Shown piece by piece: positions 3,219 to 31,294 of a DNA stretch of 64,000 nucleotides. The DNA is taken from positions 1-64,000 of the forward strand of contig JAMOSO010000055.1 in NCBI GenBank assembly GCA_027063065.1, written 5' to 3'. Below the pieces are notes generated by a model. That model saw only the letters and a list, made by a program, of their open reading frames with translations. It ran no database searches and was not told the origin of the DNA. The position numbers and the translations under genes were made by a program. The DNA is from Planctomycetota bacterium. GTDB taxonomy: Bacteria > Planctomycetota > JAMOSO01. How positions within the stretch are numbered: the first letter of the stretch is position 1; each line of letters starts with the position of its first letter.

Positions 3219-3254
3219 ATATATAGAGACGTTGTGTACAACGTCTCTATATAT
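3219..3254. terminator. strong hairpin between convergent trpD and SGNH gene
   Basis: A perfect 16-bp stem (3219-3234 pairing with 3239-3254) closes a 4-nt TGTA loop; its core is GAGACGTTG / CAACGTCTC. It lies 7 bp beyond the stop codon of the leftward SGNH gene and about 190 bp beyond trpD. There is no T-run on either side, so it is not a classic intrinsic terminator, but a shared 3' end hairpin for both convergent transcripts is the simplest reading. The rest of the 3030-3261 gap shows no gene. Confidence 0.55.
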
Positions 3255-27085: not shown

Positions 27086-29452
27086 TTATCGTTTTAGCAC
27101 TATGCCCAACCACTCTTGAATTATAGGGCTAAACTTAACAACTAATGGTGTAAATACTATAGAAACCATTGACATTAGTTTGATTAAGATGTTTAAACTA
27201 GGGCCTGATGTATCTTTGCAAGGATCACCAACTGTGTCGCCGATAACAGCAGCTTCGTGGGTAGGGTTGTTTGAACCATCAGGTAGTTTTTTACCGCCTA
27301 AATTGCCTGCTTCTACATATTTTTTGGCATTATCCCAAGCGCCACCAGCATTGTTTAACATAGTTGCTAAAACAAAACCTGTAGTTAATGTACCTGCTAA
27401 TAATCCAATTACTCCAGGTACACCCAAAATCAAACCGGCAACAACAGGGATTAATATGGCTAAAATAGAAGGTAATACCATTTCTTTTTGTGCGCCTTGT
27501 GTTGAAATATCCACACAGGCGGCATAATCAGCTTTGGCTGTACCTTCCATAATGCCAGGGATTTCTTTGAATTGTCGTCTGACTTCATTTACCATTGAAC
27601 CAGCTGCACGTCCAACGGCTTTCATTGTCATTGCACAAAAAACAAATGCGGACATTGCCCCAATAAAAATTCCGCAAAGAACAAGAGGGTTCATCATATG
27701 TACTTGATAAATGTCGATAATGCTAAGGATATCAAATTTTTGTATAGCCTCTTTACTTAGCATTATTTTTTCGCCAGCGGCATTTAATGCTCCGCCCATA
27801 TTGAAGCCATCATTATTTTGAGCAATATTGCCTGCCCACATTTTGATTTCTTCTACATAAGCTGCAATTAAAGCCAGGGCAGTAAGGGCAGCAGAGCCTA
27901 TGGCAAAGCCTTTGCCAGTTGCGGCAGTAGTGTTGCCAAGAGAATCTAGTGCATCAGTGCGTTCGCGCACTTCATGGCCTAATTTTGCCATTTCTGCATT
28001 GCCACCTGCATTGTCGGCGATGGGTCCGTATGCATCTGTTGCTAATGTAATACCAAGAGTAGATAACATACCTACTGCGGCAAATCCAATACCATATAAT
28101 CCCATATTAAAATTGCTAAAACCACCTGGAAATCCAAATGCACATAAAATACCAATTACCACTGTTATAACAGGTAATCCTGCGGAATACATACCAGTAG
28201 CTAACCCATCAATAATAACGGTTGCTGCACCCATTTGTGCTTCACTGGCTAGATTTTTCGTAGGCTTATAATGATCTGAGGTGTAGTATTCAGTGGCTTG
28301 CCCAATAATTACTCCAGCGATAAGTCCCGCTGTAATAGAACCAAAAATACCCCAAGATATTATGCCCATATTGGCAATAATTGCCGCTACAATTAAGATG
28401 CCAACCGAGCTAAACAAAGTACCAAATAATAATGAATTTAGTAAATCTTTTTGAGTAGCATCGTTTTTGCATTTGATAGTAAAGATACCTAATATTGACA
28501 TAAATATGCCAAAGCCTGCAATAATCATTGGCGCTACAATATACATTACACCTTCAGTTGCTACGTTAAAGTCAACATCGGCAGATTTTTGAGCAACAAC
28601 AGACGCTCCAATGGCAGCGGTTGCTAAAATAGAGCCACAGTATGATTCGTACAAGTCAGCACCCATGCCTGCGACATCACCAACATTGTCACCAACATTA
28701 TCAGCTATGGTGGCTGGATTGCGAATATCATCTTCTGGGATACCAGCTTCTACCTTACCTACAAGGTCAGCCCCAACATCAGCGGCTTTAGTAAAAATGC
28801 CTCCTCCAACACGGGCAAATAAAGCCTGTGTAGAAGCGCCCATACCAAAAGTAATCATGGTGATAGTTATTTTTACCATTTTTTCTGTAATATTTAAACC
28901 AGAGTGAACAAACTCAACACCCATAAAATGCCATCCAGTTGTCAAGCCTGTTGTAGCATCAGTTGCAAAGGCTATTTTATCTAAAAATAGATACCATGCA
29001 CATATATCGATTAAGCCAAAGCCCACAACAATCAAGCCCATGACGGCACCCGAGCGAAATGCTACTTGTAGTCCTTCGTTTAGAGAGCTTCTAGCAGCAT
29101 TAGCAGTTCTTGCCGAGGCATTAGTCGCAGTACGCATACCTAAGTAACCGCATAATCCAGAGAAAAATCCACCAGTTAAAAATGCAATAGGTACAAATGG
29201 ATTTTGTATACCTGTGGCAGCTAGTAAGGTAAAGATGGCAAACAAAATAGCAAATACTACGCCGACAGATTTGTATTGTCGAGCTAGATATGCCATTGCA
29301 CCTTCACGCACATATCCTGCGATTTCTTTCATTAGATCGGTGCCTTCATCGGCCGCCATCATCTTTAAATAGTAAACAACTGCAAAGAATAATGCAGTAA
29401 TTGCTCCAGCTGGTGCTACCCACCAAATGTCTGGGGTTAGAGATATATCCAT
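27086..29452 (-). CDS. hppA: membrane-bound ion-pumping pyrophosphatase, K+-dependent type
   Basis: The 788-residue protein is a polytopic membrane pyrophosphatase. Near 250 it has the PPi/Mg site [19 protein letters not shown] followed by [15 protein letters not shown], and later the second cluster [16 protein letters not shown] and [17 protein letters not shown]. The position that separates K+-dependent from K+-independent enzymes is Ala here ([11 protein letters not shown], not GNTTKA), so this is the K+-dependent class, which includes Na+-pumping and Na+/H+-pumping enzymes. It couples PPi hydrolysis to cation export at the inner membrane and complements the soluble CBS-PPase at 6.5 kb. 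AAGGAGG precedes the ATG. It stands alone. Confidence 0.95.
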
Positions 29453-29628
29453 ATTTGCCTCCTTTAAAAAGAAATGGATGTAAATAGTTTTTTTACGCTA
29501 TAAAAATAGCCTAAAGTTATTGCATTTTAACGATAAATTTATGAGTTGCCACTAAAAAAATATTTTTATGCTAAAAATCGGTGTTTGTAAGTAGTGAATG
29601 TGAAACATTTTACATTAAATACAAGTCG

Positions 29629-29674
29629 TTATTTAACATATATGCTATTTATAAATAACGTATATGTTAAATAA
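29629..29674. repeat. 46-bp near-perfect palindrome upstream of the malic enzyme gene
   Basis: The two outer arms TTATTTAACATATA (29629-29642) and TATATGTTAAATAA (29661-29674) are exact reverse complements, and the central 18 bp also pair except at two positions, so the whole 46 bp is one dyad with essentially no loop. It sits about 195 bp before the malic enzyme start, in a 417-bp gene-free gap between divergent hppA and malic enzyme. It could be a multi-site operator or a cruciform/hairpin element. I see no gene in 29453-29869. Confidence 0.7.
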
Positions 29675-29725
29675 AACTGCTTAAAATTGTTATTTAAGTA
29701 AATTTATTAGTTTAAATATACGTTA
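29656..29725. repeat. second inverted repeat sharing half-sites with the 46-bp palindrome
   Basis: TAACGTATAT (29656-29665, inside the palindrome) recurs as the exact reverse complement ATATACGTTA at 29716-29725, followed by more TTAA-rich short dyads (GTTAAACCTGTTAAC near 29729-29743). Together there are three related copies of a TTAA(C)ATATACGTTA-like site within 100 bp, as expected for several binding sites of one regulator. In an AT-rich gap some of this can be chance. Confidence 0.4.
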
Positions 29726-29869
29726 TTAGTTAAACCTGTTAACTAAGATGTTTTGGTGGTTAAAATAATGAAGAAATATTTATAAATATTTTTAGATAAA
29801 AAATATAAAGCTCTTATAATAAAAAACTTATCATATATTGGATATTTTATTTTATTTTTGAGGAAACCT

Positions 29870-31294
29870 ATGACACCAACTACCAATGCCAGTAACAGTA
29901 TTATTATTCGTTTAAAAATATCTAATAAGCCGGGAATGTTAGCAAAAGTGACGGCTGTGATAGGTGAGCATGGCGGAAATATCGGTGCGATAGATATTGC
30001 TAAGGCTCAAAAGGGAGCATTAGTTAGAGATTTTACTGTGTTTACAGAAGATGTGAAGCGAGCTGAAAATATAACAGACGCATTAAAACAAATGGATGAC
30101 GTTGAAGTAGTTAGTTATTCTGATAGAACTTTTTTAATTCATTTAGGCGGTAAGATAGAGACTAAATGTAGAATACCTCTTAAAAATCGTGATGATTTAT
30201 CTATGGCCTATACTCCTGGTGTAGCAAGGGTGTGCGAAGCAATTCATAAAAACAAAAAAGACGCTTATAAATTGACAATAAAAAATAATACAGTGGCAGT
30301 AGTCTCTGATGGTACTGCCGTATTGGGATTAGGTGATATTGGTCCAGAAGCCGCGATGCCTGTGATGGAAGGTAAAGCAATGTTATTTAAAGAATTTGCT
30401 AACGTTGATGCTTTTCCGCTATGTTTAGACACTACTGATGTCGAAGAGATTATAGCCACGGTAAAAAATGTAGCACCAACTTTTGGCGGTATCAATTTGG
30501 AGGATATCTCTGCTCCTCGTTGTTTTGAAATCGAAAAACGTTTGCGAGAAGAATTAAACATACCAGTATTTCATGATGACCAACACGGTACAGCCGTAGT
30601 ATTGACAGCGGCTGTTATTAATGCTTTAAAGGTAACCAAAAAACAAGCTCAAGATATTAAAGTTGTTGTGGCAGGAGTAGGTGCAGCGGGTATGGCTTGT
30701 ACTAAAATGTTGTTGGGTTTAGGTATTAAAAATATTATAGGTTGTGATCGTAAAGGTGCTTTATATACTGGACGTGATGGCTTAAACGAATCTAAACAAT
30801 GGTATGCAAATAATACTAATCCCAATAAAGAACAGGGTTCTATCCACGATGTAATTAATGGTGCAGACCTGTTTGTAGGTGTGTCTGGTCCAAATATTTT
30901 AGATGAAAATGATTTAAAAAATATGGCACAAAATCCCATAGTATTTGCTATGTCTAACCCAGATCCAGAAATAGCTCCAGAAATAGCTCAAAAATATGCC
31001 GCAGTTATAGGCACAGGTCGCAGTGATTATCCAAATCAGATAAATAATGTTTTATGTTTTCCTGGACTATTTAGGGGGGCTTTAGATTGTCGTGCGACAG
31101 ATATTACAGAAAATATGAAATTGGCAGCGGCCAATGCTATTGCCAATTCAATTGAAGAAGCTCATCTTCATTCAGATTATATTATGCCAAGTGTATTTGA
31201 TCCAAAGGTTGCAAAAGCAGTGGCATTGGCAGTGCATCAAGCAGCTATTAAAGACGGTGTAGATCAAAGTTCTATTAAAATAGTTAATAAGTAA
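29870..31294 (+). CDS. NAD(P)-dependent malic enzyme with N-terminal ACT domain
   Basis: From the ATG at 29870 (GAGGAA spaced 7 nt before) the protein has 474 residues. An ACT-type ligand domain occupies about residues 10-80 (IIIRLKISNKPGMLAKV, GGNIGAIDIAKAQKG), followed by the malic enzyme core: YTPGVARVCEAI with the catalytic Tyr, GLGDIGPEAAMPVMEGKAML, NLEDISAPRCFEIE, FHDDQHGTAVV and the nucleotide loop VVAGVGAAGMA. It decarboxylates malate to pyruvate in the cytoplasm; the ACT domain probably gives amino-acid or metabolite feedback. A TTG 12 nt upstream is less likely as start. cysQ follows after 1 nt, so it heads the cysQ-men operon. The unusual palindrome region lies upstream. Confidence 0.92.
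   Translation: MTPTTNASNSIIIRLKISNKPGMLAKVTAVIGEHGGNIGAIDIAKAQKGALVRDFTVFTEDVKRAENITDALKQMDDVEVVSYSDRTFLIHLGGKIETKCRIPLKNRDDLSMAYTPGVARVCEAIHKNKKDAYKLTIKNNTVAVVSDGTAVLGLGDIGPEAAMPVMEGKAMLFKEFANVDAFPLCLDTTDVEEIIATVKNVAPTFGGINLEDISAPRCFEIEKRLREELNIPVFHDDQHGTAVVLTAAVINALKVTKKQAQDIKVVVAGVGAAGMACTKMLLGLGIKNIIGCDRKGALYTGRDGLNESKQWYANNTNPNKEQGSIHDVINGADLFVGVSGPNILDENDLKNMAQNPIVFAMSNPDPEIAPEIAQKYAAVIGTGRSDYPNQINNVLCFPGLFRGALDCRATDITENMKLAAANAIANSIEEAHLHSDYIMPSVFDPKVAKAVALAVHQAAIKDGVDQSSIKIVNK

Follow-up and report, generated by a model that had tools for sequence, protein, structure and literature searches.

In E. coli, the ROK regulator NagC acts on the amino-sugar genes nagE-BACD, manXYZ and glmUS, controls its own operon, and uses A+T-rich dyads that are paired at some promoters; its boxes span 23 bp and carry either G or C at ±11 plus T-T at −6/−5 (PMC2806358, excerpts). 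In Bifidobacterium longum subsp. infantis, nagB and a gene for a ROK kinase lie next to the gene of the ROK repressor NagR, which has palindromic operators, a common feature of ROK regulators; it is freed from them by N-acetylglucosamine and derivatives, and expansion of its regulon from a local GlcNAc regulator has been inferred (PMC9599254, excerpts). The Thermotogae ROK regulators XylR, ManR, BglR, GluR, TreR, ChiR and IolR are local sugar regulators; their sites come from comparative-genomic prediction, with validation for part of them, and ChiR governs a chitobiose operon with GlcNAc genes (PMC3750489, excerpts). For RokB, excerpted text gives an operator length of 28 bp.

Here we analyse a near-perfect palindrome of 46 bp in a 64,000-nt stretch of Planctomycetota DNA (the window), located between hppA and a malic-enzyme gene. 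The sequence evidence makes it very probable that the palindrome comprises two abutting operators of the genome's NagC-like ROK regulator, because the dyad in each arm recurs in the regulator's own promoter and the core of the dyad recurs in the promoters of its homologues. Like NagC, the regulator would be a ROK regulator of amino-sugar genes that controls its own operon through A+T-rich dyads of similar length, paired at a promoter. Unlike E. coli NagC boxes, the four sites of this genome each measure 22 bp and have T/A ends and A-A or A-G at −6/−5 on both strands, and we therefore class them as ROK-family operators rather than E. coli-type NagC boxes; malic enzyme and pyrophosphatase are not named among the NagC targets in the excerpts of that source (PMC2806358). 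The likeness to NagR is one of gene arrangement and description, not of operator sequence; NagR belongs to another phylum and, in the excerpted account, its targets serve glycan uptake and breakdown, with neither malic enzyme nor an ion-pumping pyrophosphatase among them (PMC9599254). The Thermotogae regulators, likened by description and not by motif, differ in that the targets given in the excerpts are sugar catabolic operons (PMC3750489). As a ROK-family operator, the palindrome is thus unusual in being a fused inverted pair, and its target gene pair is unexpected. We found no report, in excerpts of the open-access literature, that ties a ROK regulator or amino-sugar sensing to malic enzyme or membrane pyrophosphatase; two papers mention both 'ROK family' and 'malic enzyme' and, in their excerpted text, draw no connection between them (PMC12791066, PMC8303734). 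Searching the open-access literature for the core motif as text returned one plant paper.

Table 1. Coordinates of the palindrome, the predicted operators and the flanking genes (positions in the window; C55 marks positions on the same contig outside it)
Feature	Position	Strand	Remarks
hppA, membrane ion-translocating pyrophosphatase, 788 aa	27086..29452	-	PF03030 837 bits; NF001954 977 bits, above cut-off
Malic enzyme, ACT domain at N terminus, 474 aa from ATG	29870..31294	+	Divergent neighbour
46-bp near-perfect palindrome, probably a pair of inverted, abutting 22-bp operators	29629..29674	.	Anatomy, shuffles, single copy
Predicted ROK operator 1, TATTTAACATATATGCTATTTA	29630..29651	.	0 mismatches to 22-bp dyad; 17.1 bits
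Predicted ROK operator 2, TAAATAACGTATATGTTAAATA	29652..29673	.	0 mismatches to 22-bp dyad; 19 bits
Weak third copy	29708..29729	.	5 mismatches to dyad; 7.2 bits; E 0.007 in 417 bp
First nag site, TAATTAACGTATGTGTTATTTA	C55:91318-91339	.	0 mismatches to TAWWTAACRYATRYGYTAWWTA
Second nag site, TAAATAAACTATGCGTTAAATA	C55:91290-91311	.	2 mismatches to TAWWTAACRYATRYGYTAWWTA

The palindrome is composed of two arms of 23 nt (TTATTTAACATATATGCTATTTA, 29629-29651, and TAAATAACGTATATGTTAAATAA, 29652-29674), which are complementary at 21 of 23 positions, with two mismatches and a loop of 0 nt. Each arm is in turn a 22-bp quasi-dyad, TAWWTAACRYATRYGYTAWWTA, with the core TAAC-N6-GYTA at 29634-29647 and 29656-29669, so that the two centres are 22 bp apart. 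The inner 10-mer ATATACGTTA occurs again at 29716-29725, inverted with respect to the right arm, and lies within the weak third copy, 56 bp beyond operator 2; with mismatches allowed, 29654-29674 matches 29707-29727 over 21 nt at 86%. With matches scored +1 and mismatches −2, the palindrome scores 17. The 417-bp gap, dinucleotide-shuffled 3000 times, never reaches this score (maximum 15 without a loop and 16 with loops of 0-10), nor does the window in 200 shuffles; of 200 shuffles of ~64 kb at the composition of the gap, one does. The first-pass annotation, which had reported a 46-bp dyad with two imperfect pairs, no real loop, a length beyond chance and an inverted half-site at 29716-29725, in a 417-bp gap between divergent hppA and malic enzyme, is borne out in all these respects. 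A short dyad, TTAGTTAA-ACCTG-TTAACTAA, with 8-bp arms and a 5-nt spacer, adjoins the weak third site at 29726-29746 and is unlike the ROK dyad.

The gap between the divergent starts, hppA at 29452 and the malic-enzyme ATG at 29870, is 80% A+T, and an in-frame TTG precedes that ATG at 29858. The palindrome lies near the middle of the gap, with 196 and 177 bp separating its operators from the start codons on either side, and hppA and the malic enzyme are candidate targets. Promoter-like matches in the gap do not go beyond chance (7 versus 4.7).

The 22-bp dyad leads to a second locus. The pattern TAWWTAACRYATRYGYTAWWTA was built on three sites, the two arms and the first nag site, whose perfect fit follows from that construction. 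At up to two mismatches, the pattern has five places in the genome: the two arms, the two nag sites and an intragenic place (on C5); its reversed control has two, each at two mismatches. Outside the palindrome, the first nag site is the sole place with 0 mismatches in the 2.13-Mb genome. An arms-only pattern derived by hand, TAWWTARCRTATAYGYTAWWTA, finds the first nag site at one mismatch, alone that near outside the palindrome among the listed matches of TAWWTAACRYATRYGYTAWWTA. The second nag site, which was not used in writing the pattern, is fitted as well by none of 2000 shuffles of the surrounding 58 bp. We built a profile, R1, from the sequences of the four sites alone; it scores them at 14.9-19.3 bits, matches by construction, and the next-best genome place, which is intragenic, at 13.6 bits. 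The signal is limited to the best-fitting sites: there is no excess of TAWWTAACRYATRYGYTAWWTA in the genome at up to three mismatches (37 versus 48 strand matches for the control), and no genome-wide enrichment of the 14-bp core at up to two (172 strand matches versus 217 for the reversed pattern). Outside the palindrome, the core has eight distinct places at one mismatch, six of them intragenic, one at a gene junction and one in a clear divergent gap, the last being C55:91322-91335, in the nag gap (locus L108) beside the regulator gene.

The nag gap is a 90-bp divergent gap, containing both nag sites at a centre-to-centre distance of 28 bp, between the ROK regulator gene on one side and, on the other, a gene for a 453-aa ROK kinase-like protein (weak ROK match, 24.5 bits, cut-off 22.9) followed by nagB (TIGR00502 297 bits, above cut-off). 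The regulator gene (C55:90153-91259, minus strand) is located about 62 kb from the palindrome. Its product has an N-terminal helix-turn-helix (MarR HTH, 25.3 bits, cut-off 24.6) and a ROK domain (PF00480, 113.7 bits, cut-off 22.9), and phmmer matches it to structurally characterised ROK regulators, Mlc among them; the best NCBIfam model is NagC, at 103.4 bits versus a cut-off of 650, and the protein is thus NagC-like and falls short of a NagC equivalog. Family and structure-library searches served for naming only. It is the one ROK regulator detected in the genome. Of the two remaining ROK matches, one is the kinase-like neighbour; the other, on C69, was rejected: it is below the cut-off, and its frame reads by eye as an acetate kinase. 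The dyad, A+T-rich, 22 bp long and present in four places, has the form expected of a ROK operator (about 22-28 bp), and it is found in the promoter of a ROK regulator, as is the core in three of the four homologues described below.

We compared the regulator with its best four full-length homologues among 392 genomes of the phylum (own genome included), all four of which (G340, G093, G240 and G125) belong to a single different family, f32. Identity to the regulator is 28-29% over the alignment, and R-K-S-S in the helix-turn-helix, a stretch that we take, from the analogy with ROK regulators, to be the recognition helix, does not vary among the five proteins. A degenerate core that came from the own genome, TAACRYATRYGYTA, is present upstream of three of the four homologue genes, with 0 mismatches in G093 and one each in G125 and G340, fits equalled by 0, 3 and 1 of 1000 shuffles, respectively; upstream of the G240 homologue it is absent (best 4 mismatches, a fit equalled by 822 of 1000 shuffles). 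Fits of the full 22-bp dyad to the homologue promoters are weaker, with 3, 4, 5 and 7 mismatches (equalled by 9, 7, 28 and 766 of 1000 shuffles).

The exact core TAACATATATGTTA was picked after its appearance in G093. In that genome it occurs once in 3.7 Mb at up to one mismatch, flanked by the ROK gene and a gene resembling glucosamine-6-phosphate deaminase (NF002557 183.8 bits, below cut-off), with a ROK kinase next, the arrangement seen in the own genome. In G125, the ROK promoter is one of the genome's two places at up to one mismatch. Over five phylum genomes, near-exact TAACATATATGTTA has nine places versus four for a reversed control; G017 accounts for five of the nine, none of them seen beside a ROK gene. 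Furthermore, TAACATATATGTTA is present upstream within two mismatches at four of five RKSS loci (own included) and at none of 25 other loci from the ROK search, which form a loose control because many are kinases and three of these 25 (L187, L199 and L206) look mis-framed. The best four places of R1, which draws on own-genome sites only, in 62 kb of the relatives are a site before a CBM9-like gene in G240 (E = 0.0016), which is not independent because its locus was chosen by pattern, and the three ROK promoters (E = 0.003, 0.22 and 0.55).

The site in G240 is the single near-exact core place of that genome (L218 1501-1514) and lies directly before the CBM9-like gene; a CBM9-like gene 31% identical to it is the divergent neighbour of the G340 ROK gene. 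This suggests that the G240 gene is a further target of the same ROK group. The deaminase-like frame beside the G093 ROK regulator (L208 3767-6118) encodes 784 aa, of which the middle part matches NF002557, and is without a Pfam match. Within the window, the frame at 249-1175 encodes a 308-aa protein without a Pfam or NCBIfam match, is followed by what reads by eye as an LmbE-like deacetylase, and shares no similarity with the G093 nagB-like protein.

No such site is present upstream of the malic enzymes of G340, G093, G240, G125 and G017 (14-bp core, best 4-6 mismatches). Since it is missing before these five other malic enzymes, the hppA/malic-enzyme target would be particular to the own lineage, or at least not general. 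Malic enzymes elsewhere in the set of 392 phylum genomes reach at most 72% identity, and a contig scan gave 80 loci, none above 68% identity. By eye, no palindrome like that at 29629-29674 is present in the 500 bp before the malic enzyme at 20 loci, of which 11 are from phylum genomes and 9 from the 80 of the scan; one of the malic-enzyme upstream regions (L033) contains a palindrome that equals the score of 17, with a 10-nt loop and a different sequence.

The first-pass annotation left a choice between an operator array and a cruciform-type repeat found elsewhere in the genome. The former is supported and has gained a candidate regulator in the one detected ROK protein. The latter, or any repeat element, would account for the length and perfection of the dyad; it is unsupported because the own genome, 90.5% complete, shows no second copy where a repeat should have several, and we give it next to no weight. 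Specifically, the whole gap as a 405-bp query finds no other copy of the palindrome in the 2.13-Mb genome at E ≤ 0.001, and a 156-bp query at E ≤ 10 finds short A+T-rich matches only, the best of which (39 nt, 79%, E = 0.006) lies outside the palindrome. The half-site quoted in that annotation, TTATTTAACATATA, when searched for across the genome, gave no further exact copy, and at up to two mismatches is not in excess in the window (4 observed versus a shuffle mean of 5.5). Of the six half-site loci, five are intragenic and one (L008) lies outside the listed frames. An RNA hairpin in the malic-enzyme leader, acting as an attenuator or stability element in place of a DNA site, is highly improbable. 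The + strand does fold at −18 kcal/mol, with none of 200 shuffles as good (z = −4.9), but every DNA palindrome folds as RNA, 29400-29900 is without a terminator-like site, and the half-dyads are also present in the nag promoter at 28-bp spacing and not as such a hairpin. An intrinsic terminator was rejected, there being 0 terminator-like sites in 29400-29900 and the flanking genes being divergent. A dif/Xer site was likewise dropped: the arms contain ATGTTAAAT elements, which presumably resemble a XerD arm, spaced 20 bp instead of 6.

Two further alternatives concern which protein acts, and how. The dyads might be operators of another regulator that also governs the nag promoter, since the link between regulator and operator is drawn from position and from the promoters of the homologues; yet the core accompanies the ROK gene across families despite differing neighbours (nagB-like in G093, CBM9-like in G340, Melibiase-like in G125), and it accompanies the RKSS residues, which makes another regulator improbable. 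Rather unlikely, though to be taken more seriously, is that ROK operators at the palindrome act on one gene only, hppA or the malic enzyme, or activate, as NagC does at E. coli glmUS. NagC activates glmUS P1 while repressing nag and manXYZ (PMC2806358, excerpts), and the palindrome is almost equidistant from the hppA and malic-enzyme starts. A doubled strong operator would fit a repressor, as an expectation only, and the present data do not discriminate between this alternative and repression of both genes.

Under the two-operator reading, one ROK dimer would occupy each dyad, and two dimers would lie side by side, their centres 22 bp apart, covering the middle of the gap. The dimers at the palindrome would repress hppA and/or the malic enzyme, and by analogy with NagC and NagR the regulator would also repress nag; an amino-sugar ligand, by the same analogy N-acetylglucosamine or its phosphate, would release them. 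Dimer binding, the ligand, the sign of control and the affected gene are thus what we infer from described ROK systems. The amino-sugar regulon of this lineage would then include the malic enzyme and the pyrophosphate-driven pump, and the palindrome may steer carbon flow or PPi. On balance, we lean towards the view that the amino-sugar ROK repressor of this lineage has recruited the malic enzyme and the ion-pumping pyrophosphatase by a fused operator pair equal to its own, that amino-sugar supply would directly set the malate/pyruvate node and PPi energy recovery, and that the regulon in the own genome would consist of two promoters. The genome is 90.5% complete, and additional targets may therefore be missing. 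The analysis of the palindrome names a regulator and predicts a regulon of two promoters that can be tested, in the only member of its class among the genomes compared, and RKSS and TAACATATATGTTA form a pair of recognition residues and operator from which ROK regulons could be predicted in other members of the phylum.

The window contains five more palindromes, with best scores of 15-17, near 3235, 24084, 27048, 49570 and 63060. Each lies between convergent genes, which is where terminators sit, and they look like terminators shared by two genes.
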